NCBI GenBank assembly: GCA_025774805.1
Contig: JALGZR010000073.1
Span: 1-38,571, forward strand
DNA from: a bacterium
GTDB taxonomy: Bacteria > ARS69
Reading direction: 5' to 3'
Length of the DNA stretch: 38,571 bases
Below the pieces are notes generated by a model. It was not told the DNA's origin. It ran no database searches and saw only the letters and a list, made by a program, of their open reading frames with translations. Every line of letters begins with the position of its first letter. Position 1 is the stretch's first letter. Both the position numbers and the translations under genes were made by a program. Shown here one piece after another: positions 1,998 to 19,982 of the stretch.

Positions 1998-2351
1998 ATG
2001 ATCTACGAGGACCTGAGGGAGCGGATCGGCGTGCGCGCCGACTTCCGCGGGCGCCGCGTGACCCCGCTCGCGTTTCGCCGGAAGGGACGCGTCCACCGTC
2101 TGCGCCAGGTGGCGGCCCGCTGGGAGGAGCGGCAGGGCGGTCGCCGCCTTCTGTACTTCTCCTGTCTCGACGACGCCGGCGATCTCTACCAGCTCCACTT
2201 CGACGCGGTCGAGGTGTCCTGGCACCTCGACGCCGTGCAGGTCGCCGCCGACCCGGTGCCGTTCGGGCGGGCGCGGCCGGCCGATCCCCGGCGGTCCCCC
2301 TCTCCCGGTCGCCCCGTTCCGGCGGAGCGCGGGCGGCCCGGCGCGCCGTGA
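1998..2351 (+). CDS. DUF6504-like small protein at the head of the translesion polymerase cassette
   Basis: This is a 117-residue soluble protein. The N-terminal 90 residues read as a compact beta-rich domain with the pattern PLAFRRKGRVHRLRQV..RWEE, then LLYFSCLDDAGDLYQLHFDAVEVSWHL. The tail is Pro/Arg-rich. The pattern and its position next to a Y-family polymerase resemble the DUF6504 proteins that accompany DNA polymerase Y genes in other high-GC bacteria; I recall this resemblance and have not searched it. The stop overlaps the GTG of the polymerase gene (GTGA at 2348-2351), so translation is probably coupled. The biochemical role is unknown; an accessory or regulatory role in damage-induced synthesis is inferred from context. 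The start ATG sits about 10 nt after the -10 hexamer. Confidence 0.75.
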   Translation: MIYEDLRERIGVRADFRGRRVTPLAFRRKGRVHRLRQVAARWEERQGGRRLLYFSCLDDAGDLYQLHFDAVEVSWHLDAVQVAADPVPFGRARPADPRRSPSPGRPVPAERGRPGAP

Positions 2352-3544
2352 TCGCGCACGTCGACATCGACGCGTTCTTCGCCGCGGTCGAGCAACGGCG
2401 CGATCCCCGTCTGCGGGGGCGGCCGGTCGCGGTCGGCAACGGGGTCGTGGCGAGCTGCTCGTACGAGGCGCGCGCGCGCGGCTGCCGCACCGCCATGACG
2501 CTTCCCGAGGCCCGGCGCGCCTGCCCCGACCTCGTGATCCTCGACGGCAACTACGCGACGTACCGCTGTTTCGCCGAGGCGGTGTTCGACGTCTGCCGCG
2601 ACTACTCGCCCGCGCTGGAGACGTACCTCGACGAGGCGGTGCTCGACCTCACCGGCACCGGCCGGCTGTGGGGGCACGCGTCGAACGTGGCGCGCGCGCT
2701 CCGGCGGCGGGTCCGCGAGCGAACCGGTCTCGCCGTCACGGTCGGCGTGGGGTCGAACCGCATGCTGGCCCGGCTGGCCACCGCCCGGGCGAAGCCGGAC
2801 GGCTTCGGGATCATCGAGCCGGGCAAGGAGGCCGAGCACGTCGCGAACCTGCCGGTCGAGCAGCTCCCGGGGGTGGGGCCGCGCACGGCGGCGAGCCTCC
2901 GCGACCTGAACCTCACGACGGCGGGCGCGCTGCGGCGGCTGTCGCGCGCCGAGCTCACCGCACTCTACGGGGTCCGGGGCGACGCGCTCTACGACCGCTG
3001 CCGCGGGCGCGACACGCGCGCCGTGTCGGCGCGGGAGGTCCCCGCCTCGATCTCCCGCGAGACGAGCTTCCACCGGGACACGTCCGATCCGGAGGAGCAC
3101 CGCGCGATGCTGTACTACCTCGTCGAGCGGGCCGCGCGCACGGCGCGGGGGCTCGGGCTCGCGACGCGAACCGTCTCCGTGCGAATCCGGACGGCCGACG
3201 GGAAGGGGGAGGAGGCTCGACGCTCGGTCCGCGAGGGGGTGACGGTCGACACCCGCCTCTTTCGTCTGGCCGGCGAGCTGTTCGAGCGGGCGCACACGCG
3301 CCGCGTCGCGTTGCACCTCGTCGGGTGCGCGCTCTCCGGCTTCGTGCCCGACGGGAGCTGGCAGCTCGACTGCTTCGACGCGGCGGGCGATCCGGCCCGA
3401 CGCGCCCTGTGCGACGGGCTCGACGCGATCCGCGAACGGTACGGGCACTCCGCCGTCGTCGCCGGTCCCTCGCTCGCGCTCCTCGGCCGGCTCCGACAGG
3501 ACGCGCACGGCTTCGTGCTGCGGACCCCGTCCCTGACGCGATAG
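2348..3544 (+). CDS. dinB: Y-family translesion DNA polymerase (Pol IV/DinB type)
   Basis: 398 residues with a GTG start inside the stop of the upstream gene. The palm begins with HVDIDAFFAAVEQ (Asp6 and Asp8 bind metal; Phe11 is in the steric-gate position), followed by GNGVVASCSYEARARG. The second acidic motif YLDEAVLDLTG keeps Asp95 and Glu96, so all catalytic acids are present and the protein is a polymerase, not an inactive ImuB. The thumb has the helix-hairpin-helix LPGVGPRTAASL, and a little-finger domain follows. QLDCF near residue 339 resembles the QL(S/D)LF sliding-clamp binding motif. The gene lies 33 bp upstream of dnaE2, so the two probably act together in bypass of damaged template. 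In many bacteria the DnaE2 partner is ImuB; here it is an intact Y-family enzyme. Confidence 0.93.
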   Translation: MIAHVDIDAFFAAVEQRRDPRLRGRPVAVGNGVVASCSYEARARGCRTAMTLPEARRACPDLVILDGNYATYRCFAEAVFDVCRDYSPALETYLDEAVLDLTGTGRLWGHASNVARALRRRVRERTGLAVTVGVGSNRMLARLATARAKPDGFGIIEPGKEAEHVANLPVEQLPGVGPRTAASLRDLNLTTAGALRRLSRAELTALYGVRGDALYDRCRGRDTRAVSAREVPASISRETSFHRDTSDPEEHRAMLYYLVERAARTARGLGLATRTVSVRIRTADGKGEEARRSVREGVTVDTRLFRLAGELFERAHTRRVALHLVGCALSGFVPDGSWQLDCFDAAGDPARRALCDGLDAIRERYGHSAVVAGPSLALLGRLRQDAHGFVLRTPSLTR

Positions 3545-3577: not shown

Positions 3578-6500
3578 GTGTCCTTCGTTCCGCTCCGCGT
3601 TCGCAGCCACTTCTCCCTTCTCTGGGGGACGGCGTCGCCCGCCCGCCTCGCGGAACGGGCGTCCCGGCTCGGGTACCGTGCGCTCGCGCTGACCGACCGC
3701 GACTCGATGGCCGGCGCCGTCGTCTTCCTCGAGGCGGCGCGCGCGGCGGGGGTCCGACCCCTGCTCGGCGCGGAGATCACGGCGGCCGACGAGGACCGCT
3801 CCGCCGTCCCCGCGCTGCTGTTGCTCGCCCGCGATCGCGACGGGTACGCGACGCTCTGTCGCGTGGTCTCGGAGCGGCGGCTCGAGCCCGCGTTCGATCC
3901 GGTCGCGTCGCTCGCCGCCAGCGCGGCGGGGGTGCACGTGGTCTGCGGGGAGCCGGCGCTCGCGACGCGCCTGCGCGAGGTCGTGCCCCCCGGCTCGCTC
4001 TGGCTCGACCTCCCCCCCGAGGGGCGGCGGGCCGTGCCCCCGACGGAGCTCGCCGCCGCGGCGCGCCGGCTCGACGTCGGCCTCCTCGCGACGGGCGGCG
4101 TCTCCCTCGGCGGGGTGGAGGACCACGAGCTGCACCGCGTCCTGCGCGCCGCGGCGGCGCGCGATCTCGTCGCGCGCTTCGATCCCGCCCGTGGCGCGAC
4201 GCCGGACGAGGTGCTCGTGGCTCCGCGGGACGCGGCGCGGGCGTGGCGCGGCTTCCCCGACGCCCTCGCGAACGCGCGGCGGGTCGCCGCGAGCTGCGCG
4301 GTCGAGCTGCACCGCGGCACGCCGATCTTCCCGGTCACCCCGCTGCCGCCGAATCGGGACGCACTCGCGCACCTGCGCGCGCAGTGCGAAAAGGGGATCC
4401 GGCGCCGCCTGCGCGACCCGGAGCTTCTCCGCGAGACCCGGGCCCGGCTCCGGCGGGAGCTCGACGTCATCGCCCGGCTCGGCTTCGTCGAGTACTTCGT
4501 CATCGTCGGCGACATCGTGCGGGCGGCCCGGGCGCGCGGCATCCCGACCGTCGGCCGCGGGTCGGGCGCGAGCTCGGTCGTGTCGTGGGCGCTCGGCATA
4601 ACCAACGTGAATCCGGTCCGTTACGACCTTACGTTCGAGCGATTTCTCCACGACCGGCGCGCGGACTGTCCCGACCTCGACGTCGATCTCTGCTGGCGCG
4701 GACGCGACGAGGTCATCGAGCACGTCTACCGGACCTACGGCCGCGATCGCGTCGCCATGATCTCGACGCACGTCCTGTTTCACCCCCGCTCGGCGTTCCG
4801 CGAGGTGGCCCGCGCCTGCGGTCTGCCGCCCGCCCGGGTCGACCGGATGTCGAAGCTGCTTCCCCGCACCTGGGACGACGACGGTCTGCGCGACCGTCTT
4901 CGCCACGACCCCGTCGCCCGGCGCGGCGTCCCTCTCGACGATCCGACGGTCGCCCACGCGCTCGCGCTCGCCGAGCGGCTGCTCGGCGCGCCCCGTCACC
5001 TGGGCATCCACAGCGGAGGGATCGTCATCGGGGACCGTCCGCTCACCGCGTACACCGCCCTCGAGCGGGCGACGAAGGGGATCGTCGTCACGCAGCTCGA
5101 GATGCGCGCGATCGAGAAGATCGGTCTCGTCAAGATCGACCTGCTCGGAAACCGGGCGCTCTCGACGGTGCGGGAGACCGTCGCGCTCGTCGAGCGCGGC
5201 CGGGGGGAGCACATCGATCTCGACGCCGTCCCCGACGGCTGTCCGGAGGCGGCCCGGCGCCTCCGCGCGGGCGACACGCTCGGCGCGTTCCAGATCGAGT
5301 CTCCGGGGATGCGCAATCTCCTCCGCCAGCTCCGGCCCACGACGCTCGACGGCGTCATCGCCGCGCTCTCCCTCATCCGCCCCGGGCCGGCGGGATCGGG
5401 GATGAAGGACCTCTACGTCCTGCGGGCGCGGGGACGCGAGCCGGAGACCTACGCCGACGGCCGGCTGCGCCGGGTCCTGCACGCGAACCGCGGCATCCTG
5501 CTCTACGAGGAAGACGTGATGCGCGTCGCGACCGCGGCCACGGGGATGCCGCTCTCCGACGCGGACGGGCTGCGGCGGGCGATCGGCCGGGCGCGCGAGC
5601 CCGCGGAGTGGGAGGCGCTCGAGCGGTGGTTCGTGGCGAAGGCGGTGGCGCACGGGGTGGAGCCCGCCGCGGCGACCGCGATCTGGAGCGACCTGGCCCG
5701 GTTCGGCGCCTATGCGTTCTGCAAGGCGCACGCCGCGGGGTACGGCGTCCTCGCGTACTGGACGGTCGTGCTCAAGGCGCGCTACCCGGCCGAGTTCGCC
5801 GTCGCGATCCTCAACAATCACCAGGGCATGTACCCGAAGCGCGTGCACCTCGAGGACGCGCGCCGCCACGGCGTGCGGATCCTGCGCCCCTCGGTCGGAC
5901 GCTCCGCGGAGGAGTTCACGCTCGAGGACGGGGCGGTGCGCGTCGGGCTCGGGGAGATCGCGGGACTCTCCCGGCGCGCGATCGAGTCGACCGTCGGGGC
6001 GCGCGACCGGCGCCCCTTCACGAGCCTCGGCGACTTCCTGCGCCGCACGCGCCTCGCGCGGCCCGAGGCCGAGGCGATCGTGAAGTGCGGCGCGGCCGAC
6101 GACTTCGGGGAGACCCGGCCCCGCCTCCTCTGGCGCCTCCGCGCGACATTCGGCGACGAGACCGCCCGCCGGGCCGGGGACGAGCCGGCGCTGTTCGATC
6201 CGGAGCGGTTCCGCCGCGTTCCGCCCTCTCCCGATCTCGCCGACTACGATCCGTTGCGGCGGGCGGAGATGGAGCGCGAGCTCCTCGGGTTCCCCGTGGA
6301 CGGCCACCCGATGCGCTTCTGGCGGGACGCGCTCCGCCTGCGGGGTGTGGTCCCCGCGGCCGCCCTCCCGCCACACGCCGGCCGGCGCGCCCTCGTCGCC
6401 GGCCTGGCGAGCGCGCACCGGCGCTTCGCCACGGCGCGCGGTGGTACGATGCAGTTCCTCACGCTCGAGGACGAGACGGGGCTCGCGGAGACCACGCTCT

Positions 6501-6700
6501 TCCCCGACGCGTACCGTCGCTTCGCCGGCCTCGTCCGGGGGGGCGGCATGCTGCTCGCCGCCGGCCGCGTCGAGGACCACCTCGGGGCGATCACCCTGAC
6601 GATGGACCGGCTCGAGCGATTGCCCGCCGGCCCGCCCCGCCCGCGGGGGGCCGGGCCGCGCGTAGGTCACGGGTCGAGCCTGGTCGGACACACGAGATAG
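3578..6700 (+). CDS. dnaE2: Error-prone DNA polymerase III alpha subunit DnaE2 (ImuC)
   Basis: 1040 residues, the usual DnaE2 length and shorter than replicative DnaE. The PHP domain is N-terminal (VRSHFSLLWG, LTDRDSMAG, residues 1 to about 220). The C-family polymerase core carries PDLDVDL (Asp368, Asp370) and KIDLLG (Asp521), which match the three catalytic acids. HLGIHSGGIVI and the tandem HhH region follow, then an OB-fold near the C-terminus (GTMQFLTLEDETGLAETTLFP). The GTG start follows GGGAG. It lies 33 bp after dinB, in the same operon. DnaE2 acts in damage-induced mutagenesis with a Y-family partner. No imuA or lexA gene is in the window. Confidence 0.95.
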   Translation: MSFVPLRVRSHFSLLWGTASPARLAERASRLGYRALALTDRDSMAGAVVFLEAARAAGVRPLLGAEITAADEDRSAVPALLLLARDRDGYATLCRVVSERRLEPAFDPVASLAASAAGVHVVCGEPALATRLREVVPPGSLWLDLPPEGRRAVPPTELAAAARRLDVGLLATGGVSLGGVEDHELHRVLRAAAARDLVARFDPARGATPDEVLVAPRDAARAWRGFPDALANARRVAASCAVELHRGTPIFPVTPLPPNRDALAHLRAQCEKGIRRRLRDPELLRETRARLRRELDVIARLGFVEYFVIVGDIVRAARARGIPTVGRGSGASSVVSWALGITNVNPVRYDLTFERFLHDRRADCPDLDVDLCWRGRDEVIEHVYRTYGRDRVAMISTHVLFHPRSAFREVARACGLPPARVDRMSKLLPRTWDDDGLRDRLRHDPVARRGVPLDDPTVAHALALAERLLGAPRHLGIHSGGIVIGDRPLTAYTALERATKGIVVTQLEMRAIEKIGLVKIDLLGNRALSTVRETVALVERGRGEHIDLDAVPDGCPEAARRLRAGDTLGAFQIESPGMRNLLRQLRPTTLDGVIAALSLIRPGPAGSGMKDLYVLRARGREPETYADGRLRRVLHANRGILLYEEDVMRVATAATGMPLSDADGLRRAIGRAREPAEWEALERWFVAKAVAHGVEPAAATAIWSDLARFGAYAFCKAHAAGYGVLAYWTVVLKARYPAEFAVAILNNHQGMYPKRVHLEDARRHGVRILRPSVGRSAEEFTLEDGAVRVGLGEIAGLSRRAIESTVGARDRRPFTSLGDFLRRTRLARPEAEAIVKCGAADDFGETRPRLLWRLRATFGDETARRAGDEPALFDPERFRRVPPSPDLADYDPLRRAEMERELLGFPVDGHPMRFWRDALRLRGVVPAAALPPHAGRRALVAGLASAHRRFATARGGTMQFLTLEDETGLAETTLFPDAYRRFAGLVRGGGMLLAAGRVEDHLGAITLTMDRLERLPAGPPRPRGAGPRVGHGSSLVGHTR

Positions 6701-18553: not shown

Positions 18554-19420
18554 GTGGCCGAGAGCCTGCTCGATCATCCCTACGTCGTGCTCGACTTCGA
18601 GACGACCGGGCTCTCGGCATCTCGGGGGAGCGAGGTCATCGAGACGGGGGCGGTCCGCCTCGTGGGGGGCGAGGTGTCCGACCGCTTCCACGCGCTGTCC
18701 CGACCGCGGCTCCCCATTCCCGAGGACGCGCTGCGAATCCACGGGATCACGAACGAGATGGTGGCGGGAGAGCCGCCCTTCTCGGAAGTGCTCCCCGCCT
18801 TTCTCGCCTTCCTCGGCGAGGCCGTCCTCGTCGCGCACAACGCGCCCTTCGATCGCTCCTTTCTCGACGCGGCCCTCCGGCACGCCGGGAGACCGGCGCT
18901 GCCGAACCCGGTTCTCGACACGGTGCGGCTCTCCCGCTCGCTCTTCCCCGAGATGGGCCGCCACGATCTCGAGACCCTCTGCCGGGAGCATCGCATCGAG
19001 CGGGGGAGACGGCACCGGGCTCTGGACGACGTCGTCGCCACGGCGACGCTCTTGCGGATTCTCCTGGAGCGCGCCGGGGAGTCGGGCGTGCGAACCCTGT
19101 CCGGGCTTCTCGAGATCGGAGGCACCCCGGAGCGGCCGCCCACCCGGGAGCCGGCCGAGCCGAACATCCGATTGGATGCGGCCGGACAGGCGCGGCTCGA
19201 AGAGGCTTCGATTACGGGGGATCGGATCGTGATCTCCTACCTCTCGGCCGGGGGGAACCGCACGCGGCGAGCGGTCGTCCCCTATCAGTTCGACGCGGCC
19301 GGACGGAGCCCCCGTCTGGTCGCCTACGATCTGGAAAAGGAGGCCACGCGGACCTTTCGGCTCGATCGGATCCTGACCGTCGAGGAAGACGGTCCCGAGG
19401 GAGGAGAGGACGAGGCATGA
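18554..19420 (+). CDS. DnaQ-type 3'-5' exonuclease fused to a C-terminal WYL domain
   Basis: 288 residues with a GTG start and GGAGGAG directly upstream. Residues 8-172 are a DEDDh exonuclease: Exo I VLDFETTGL (Asp14, Glu16), Exo II HNAPFDRSFLD (Asp100) and Exo III HRALDD (His154, Asp159). All metal ligands are intact. Residues 213-277 follow the WYL-domain pattern: IVISYLSAGGNRTRRAVVPY, then PRLVAYDLEKEATRTFRLDRI. WYL domains bind ligands such as single-stranded DNA or nucleotides and usually regulate or target their partner. The stop overlaps the uracil-DNA glycosylase ATG (ATGA at 19417-19420), so both belong to one DNA-repair operon. The exonuclease call is firm; the WYL call rests on motif reading. 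Confidence 0.88.
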   Translation: MAESLLDHPYVVLDFETTGLSASRGSEVIETGAVRLVGGEVSDRFHALSRPRLPIPEDALRIHGITNEMVAGEPPFSEVLPAFLAFLGEAVLVAHNAPFDRSFLDAALRHAGRPALPNPVLDTVRLSRSLFPEMGRHDLETLCREHRIERGRRHRALDDVVATATLLRILLERAGESGVRTLSGLLEIGGTPERPPTREPAEPNIRLDAAGQARLEEASITGDRIVISYLSAGGNRTRRAVVPYQFDAAGRSPRLVAYDLEKEATRTFRLDRILTVEEDGPEGGEDEA

Positions 19421-19982
19421 GCCTCCCCACGATTCGGAAGCGTCTCGGGGATTGCACGCGATGTCCGCTGCACGCGAGCCGGACGAATCTCGTGTTCGGA
19501 TCGGGCAACCCCCGCGCCGACATCTTCCTGGTCGGCGAGGCGCCCGGGGCCCGGGAAGACGCGCAGGGAGAGCCGTTCGTGGGCGCCGCCGGGAAGCTCC
19601 TCGACCGGATGCTGGCCGGTATCGGTCTCGCCCGGTCCGACATTACATCACGAACGTGTTGAAGTGCCGTCCGCCGTCGAACCGGAACCCGAAGCCTCCG
19701 GAGATCGACACGTGCGTGCCGTTTCTCTTCGACCAGATCCGCTCGATCCGTCCCCGGATGGTGGGTACCCTCGGCAACTTCTCCACCCGGGTTCTTCTGA
19801 ACACGCGAGAGGGGATCACGAAGCTCCGGGGAAGAGTCCACGAGGCGGGGGGCCTCCGGATCGTGCCCATGTATCACCCGGCCGCCGCCCTCCACAACGG
19901 GGCCCTTCGGGGGGAGATCGTGAAGGACTTCGACCTCCTGGGGGCTTTGGCCGCGGGCGCGGGGGAACGGGGGCACCCATAG
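19417..19982 (+). pseudogene. Family-4 uracil-DNA glycosylase, interrupted by a -1 frameshift
   Basis: The first frame (from 19417) gives CTRCPL (Cys13, Cys16, cluster ligands) and GEAPGAREDAQGEPFVGAAG, motif A of family-4 UDG, then breaks at SDI. The +2 frame continues from about 19644 as YITNVLKCRPPSNRNP...DTC (the other two cluster Cys), NTREGITKLRG and MYHPAAAL (motif B), to a TAG at 19980-19982. Adding one T at 19643-19644 (SDI-YITN) restores a continuous 188-residue protein with all family motifs. No other damage is seen. So this is either a recent one-base lesion or a sequencing error in a T run. An intact product would excise uracil from DNA with a 4Fe-4S cluster. It is translationally coupled to the exonuclease-WYL gene. 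Confidence 0.85.

Follow-up and report, generated by a model that had tools for sequence, protein, structure and literature searches.

A DEDDh 3′-5′ Exonuclease Fused to a WYL Domain in a Bacterium of the Lineage ARS69: a Candidate Housekeeping Enzyme without a Fixed Partner Gene

Introduction

A gene in the middle of the window (the whole stretch of 38,571 nucleotides analyzed here) encodes what a preliminary description from the sequence took to be a DEDDh exonuclease carrying a WYL domain, cotranslated with a uracil-DNA glycosylase (UDG). This raises the question of what a WYL domain does on an exonuclease: whether it senses a signal, holds the substrate, or forms part of a proofreading or uracil-repair unit.

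The architecture is not new. A combination of WYL with a 3′-5′ "exoRNase" was already catalogued in 2014 (Makarova et al., PMC4012209), and the member proteins are, as far as that catalog entry goes, uncharacterized. That entry, one of the WYL-enzyme fusions catalogued there, joins the two domain types seen in the window gene; it names no member, organism, domain order, function or experiment. A literature search for WYL together with DEDDh returned CRISPR annotation, genome announcements and unrelated work, and no study of a DEDDh-WYL protein was found among them. WYL is likewise unmentioned in a 2026 survey of bacterial polymerases (PMC12926913).

Results and Discussion

Both Domains of the Fusion Protein Are Present

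The following features were found in the window:

18554..19420, + strand: DEDDh 3′-5′ exonuclease-WYL fusion gene, 288 aa, GTG start (Pfam RNase_T and WYL)
18584..19054, + strand: exonuclease domain, residues 11–167 (Pfam PF00929, conserved residues, structure)
19055..19165, + strand: linker and helix (residues 182–189) between the domains (low-confidence linker, AlphaFold)
19193..19384, + strand: WYL domain, residues 214–277, an Sm-like barrel (Pfam PF13280, AlphaFold, PDB matches)

The reading frame starts with GTG at 18554, preceded by a ribosome-binding-type sequence (GGAGGA), and ends with a stop codon at 19418–19420. RNase_T (PF00929; E 7.3e-37, 127.9 bits compared to a cut-off of 24) and WYL (PF13280 over residues 214–277; E 4.6e-13, 49.4 bits compared to a gathering cut-off of 21.8) were the only Pfam matches above cut-off, and at that level neither an N-terminal HTH nor a WCX domain was detected. 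All five DEDDh ligands noted in the preliminary description are present, namely D14 (18593), E16 (18599), D100 (18851), H154 (19013) and D159 (19028), and an alignment of 34 proteins showed little or no variation at these positions. The AlphaFold model of the whole protein, built with 34 sequences, had a mean pLDDT of 91.3 and was weak only at the linker (approximately residues 191–210; 62 for the block 191–200) and at the last residues. The fusion of a DEDDh exonuclease to a WYL domain is thereby confirmed as real.

In structure, the exonuclease domain was closest to the PolC exonuclease (Z 26.5), followed by S. aureus DinG (Z 23.8) and E. coli epsilon (Z 23.7). The nearest solved relatives by sequence and structure (the PolC and DinG exonucleases, epsilon and ExoX) are all DNA enzymes. 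DnaQ epsilon and the PolC exonuclease share the catalytic fold and residues of the fusion, but they have no WYL domain, and epsilon has an alpha-binding tail instead. E. coli Exonuclease I (ExoI, SbcB), a 3′-5′ exonuclease on single-stranded DNA (ssDNA), resembles the fusion in that a DEDDh domain is followed by an SH3-like domain (PMC4319927), and its exonuclease domain was aligned to the fusion model with Z 19.4 over 179 residues (model range 7–220). It differs in having a larger SH3-like domain (approximately 158 residues) and a helical domain. The WYL barrel did not superpose in place on the SH3-like domain of ExoI, and the likeness in arrangement is kept as an analogy only.

The preliminary description had proposed a family search and a structural model of the C-terminal part as checks on the WYL domain, and this assignment was borne out by both, the Pfam match lying well above threshold and the model having a WYL fold. 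Residues 203–288 predicted alone reached a mean pLDDT of 87.9 (AlphaFold). The top PDB matches for this part (Foldseek) were BrxR, ssDNA-bound CapW, PafBC and ssDNA-bound DriD, with Z values of 8.7–11.5 over 72–79 residues (VIA-align; 11.5 to both BrxR and CapW, 10.8 to mycobacterial PafBC). A sequence profile of the WYL part retrieved the same kinds of protein and, in addition, 8bnv and 8bns, which are labeled AAA ATPase and which we take to be Pif1 entries. BrxR, CapW, PafBC and DriD have the same WYL fold and corresponding groove arginines as the fusion; they differ in carrying an HTH domain and in controlling transcription, whereas the fusion has neither HTH nor WCX.

The groove of the barrel is basic, with R239 (19268), R266 (19349), R269 (19358) and R272 (19367). 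R239 was invariant among 32 sequences, and a basic residue nearly always occupied positions 266 and 272; in Bdellovibrionota, Y predominates at position 269 and K in place of the other groove arginines. In PafB, ssDNA binding is abolished by alanine at R181, at R211 and R214, at R181, R204 and R208, or at Y196 (PMC11804915). By our own residue mapping, taken from a profile alignment, R239 corresponds to PafB R181, and R266, R269 and R272 to R208, R211 and R214. These counterparts support the idea, judged from sequence, that the WYL part may meet ssDNA. At the eponymous W-Y-L site the window protein has P253-R254-L255, with R254 (codon at 19313) in place of the Tyr. This position holds Y or F in the other 31 sequences and R in relative G004. 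According to Makarova et al. (2014; PMC4012209), conservation of the eponymous residues across the WYL family is not strong.

The Fusion Is Chromosomal and Widespread

One scan of genome contigs returned 80 loci, 35 of which contain the fusion. These came mainly from Bdellovibrionota, but also from Zixibacteria, Methylomirabilota, Cyanobacteria/Obscuribacterales, Planctomycetes and Spirochaetes. A WYL domain was found by Pfam in 20 of 21 aligned proteins tested. When 97 Bdellovibrionota genomes were searched with a WYL profile built for this family, approximately 20 matches with E < 1e-15 lay in frames of fusion length (candidate fusions), and on this sequence evidence the fusion is common though not universal in that phylum. 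The Bdellovibrionota gene has a conserved chromosomal neighborhood, with motAB-like genes on one side and an lspA-like gene on the other, and in Zixibacteria the gene and a histidine ammonia-lyase-like neighbor point away from each other; these neighbor names come from reading the sequences and not from a family search. Otherwise the neighborhoods at the fusion loci examined were varied, and no repair, defense or signaling partner was found to recur. In phage and plasmid collections no place covered 80% of the query, and the matches listed were to the exonuclease domain. A mobile or defense gene is rejected on this lack of phage or plasmid matches at 80% coverage and of conserved defense neighbors.

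In the phylum of the window, a sample of five genomes was compared: the window genome G000 (96% complete) and the relatives G001 (100%), G002 (82%), G003 (67%) and G004. The fusion is present in G004, and the exonuclease-WYL query had no match in G002 or G003, at their 82% and 67% completeness. The exonuclease of G001 (L003 1492–2064) has 190 residues and ends ahead of the WYL part, in a similar neighborhood with an MFS gene upstream and downstream sequence resembling that of the window. A genome-wide profile search found no WYL domain anywhere in the complete G001 genome, and WYL is thus dispensable in at least one lineage.

The tree of exonuclease domains grouped WYL-bearing forms non-randomly, with weakly supported deep branches. 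This quick tree gave six changes of WYL label, including two artefact rows (L018, truncated near a contig end, and L056 with an N run). One origin of the fusion with losses and several origins are both compatible with those branches and cannot be told apart from the sequences.

A WYL-less DEDDh clade (168–187 aa) was found to head type I CRISPR-Cas loci, of types I-E, I-F and I-C by cas gene content:

L028 5024–6578, L059 4716–6278, L069 4925–6507 and L052 5992–6498: WYL-less DEDDh CRISPR loci

In three of these four loci a WYL-WCX regulator gene, with HTH recognized in two, directly adjoins the DEDDh gene. Both domains of the fusion also match the PADLOC models of CRISPR-associated DEDDh/WYL genes (PDLC01247 and PDLC01457). 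The fusion loci differ from those genes in that no cas genes were seen in their searched flanks, where queries with Cas1, Cas3 and Cas8 had no relative at any fusion locus; relatives of these queries turned up only at the four loci of the WYL-less clade.

The WYL Barrel May Hold the Substrate of the Exonuclease in cis

The explanation that we favor, with about even confidence, is that the fusion is a chromosomal housekeeping 3′-5′ DNA exonuclease whose WYL barrel binds the ssDNA of its own substrate in cis. The DEDDh domain, of the DnaQ/PolC-exonuclease kind, would trim DNA in the 3′-5′ direction, while the C-terminal barrel would grip the single-stranded part of the same molecule and thereby raise affinity, processivity or the choice of substrate (3′ overhangs, gaps or excised strands). 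Such an enzyme would serve in general repair or in degradation and would not be the replicative proofreader. This reading is modeled on the Pif1-WYL helicases of T. elfii and D. desulfuricans (PMC9964779), which are likewise DNA-acting enzymes with a C-terminal WYL domain; there the WYL part, as described for T. elfii, holds ssDNA in cis and makes the enzyme more active. The analogy extends to the WYL part, since the enzyme part of Pif1-WYL is a helicase unrelated to the exonuclease. Several findings count against this reading: R254 of the window protein stands where Y196A costs PafB its ssDNA binding, R269 is mostly Y in Bdellovibrionota, G001 has no WYL, and ExoVII is present in the window genome.

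The preliminary description had WYL sensing a ligand and steering the exonuclease. In such a switch the domain would respond to a separate signal and not to the substrate, either a nucleotide second messenger or ssDNA as an alarm, and would turn the nuclease on or off. The WYL regulators PafBC and DriD do sense ssDNA as a damage signal (PMC11804915), DEDDh genes adjoin separate WYL-WCX regulators in the three CRISPR loci above, and ligand sensing is proposed for WYL fusions by Makarova et al. (PMC4012209). The idea keeps some standing, but we consider it unlikely: nucleic acid is the substrate of an exonuclease in any case, and a grip in cis is therefore simpler and needs fewer assumptions, and defense or signaling genes do not recur near the fusion loci.

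Replicative Proofreading Is Probably Performed by DnaE1

The preliminary description also called the exonuclease proofreading-type. In that case it would serve DnaE1 or the DnaE2-like polymerase as epsilon does, in replication or in translesion synthesis, with WYL replacing the alpha-binding tail. The window genome had a single RNase_T match and a single WYL match, both being the fusion gene, which is thus the sole DEDDh protein found there; no DEDDh enzyme of ExoI, ExoX or RNase T type was seen in this 96%-complete genome. Of eight genomes searched that belong neither to Bdellovibrionota nor to its clade, seven likewise had a single RNase_T match, including G011, where the locus is part of a chromosome record. 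ExoVII is encoded there as well, so that the fusion, if it degrades ssDNA, would not be alone in doing so.

The window also encodes a Y-family (DinB-type) polymerase (2348–3544) whose active-site motif looks intact and, after it, a DnaE2-like C-family polymerase (3578–6700) in which the start of the PHP is degenerate. In G001, too, a DnaE2-type polymerase is encoded upstream of the exonuclease. Their position upstream of the exonuclease, approximately 12 kb in the case of the DnaE2-like gene, would fit a translesion proofreader, but unrelated genes separate the polymerases from the exonuclease.

The PHP active site consists of nine zinc ligands (PMC5636811), and a complete motif is the criterion for an active PHP proofreader (PMC12926913). 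The motif of DnaE1 is complete (HHDHEHCDH) in the window genome and in G001, G004, G011, G005, G008 and G016; these six other genomes have just one DEDDh gene each, and in five that gene includes WYL. DnaE1 therefore probably performs replicative proofreading itself. In Bdellovibrionota G012 the motif is degenerate (HHENDRGDH) and several DEDDh genes are present besides the fusion. Scores against the epsilon equivalog models of NCBIfam stayed below their cut-offs (PRK05711, 113.9 bits compared to 196; TIGR01406, 120.4 compared to 222.7). A proofreading role of the fusion is thus disfavored by the intact DnaE1 motif, and on these sequence comparisons we rate it as quite improbable.

An RNA Substrate Is Very Unlikely

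The name "exoRNase" used by Makarova et al. suggests an RNA exonuclease, in which the barrel would hold RNA in the manner of Hfq. RNases do exist among DEDDh enzymes, the fusion protein gave a weak match to the model of the exoribonuclease Rv2179c, and the WYL barrel resembles Hfq. We consider this very unlikely, as the closest relatives in sequence and structure are DNA exonucleases and the characterized WYL domains compared here (Pif1-WYL and PafB) bind ssDNA.

The Uracil-DNA Glycosylase Is Not a Conserved Partner

Directly downstream of the fusion gene lies:

19417..19982, + strand: family-4-type uracil-DNA glycosylase frame (PF03167 halves in two frames)

The ATGA overlap noted previously is real: the UDG start codon (ATG, 19417–19419) overlaps the exonuclease stop codon by four bases (19417–19420). 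An intact cotranslated partner was not found, as the UDG frame breaks after approximately 75 codons by a one-base frameshift at around 19641–19648, outside any long homopolymer, and the two halves of PF03167 lie in different frames (19495–19644 and 19638–19901). The window UDG showed 66–69% identity to the intact ortholog of G001. The break is either recent or an assembly error, since the sequence on both sides of it is well conserved. This UDG is a second paralog, seen in G000 and G001 only among the five genomes of the phylum sample. An intact and stronger family-4-type UDG is encoded at G000:C205 (46–53% identical to the window copy) and has a counterpart in all four relatives. Further matches to the UDG superfamily were seen in the window genome at G000:C254, C78, C260 and C228.

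The adjacency recurs in one of the four relatives, G001, where the UDG overlaps the stop codon of the shortened exonuclease (GTGA), but the exonuclease there has no WYL. In G004 the fusion is present without an adjoining UDG. Elsewhere none of approximately 35 fusion loci has an adjacent UDG, the nearest lying approximately 2.4 kb away with two genes between (L010). Exonuclease, WYL and UDG thus combine independently in the relatives, which counts against a three-part unit, and a UDG operon as a conserved system is rejected on the frameshift and the non-conserved pairing. Removal of uracil by a UDG leaves an abasic site, and a 3′-5′ exonuclease first needs a free 3′ end. The proposed two-step unit, in which the two cotranslated products would act jointly on uracil-containing DNA by excision and trimming, is consequently highly improbable despite the overlaps and the orthologous UDGs in similar neighborhoods of the window and G001.

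Conclusion

To our knowledge, WYL domains have been studied almost solely in transcription regulators and Pif1. It is possible, and we put it forward tentatively, that DEDDh-WYL proteins form a widespread housekeeping family which fills the niche of ExoI and ExoX in phyla without those enzymes and uses an Sm-like WYL barrel as ssDNA clamp, and that DEDDh and WYL are a recurrent functional pair, either fused on the chromosome or neighbors in type I CRISPR loci. The fusion is common in Bdellovibrionota, some members of which are culturable. A DEDDh-WYL enzyme would allow a direct test of whether WYL serves nucleases in general as an ssDNA-binding module. Where a phylum showed no ExoI-type enzyme, such a protein would also be a candidate for its ssDNA exonuclease.
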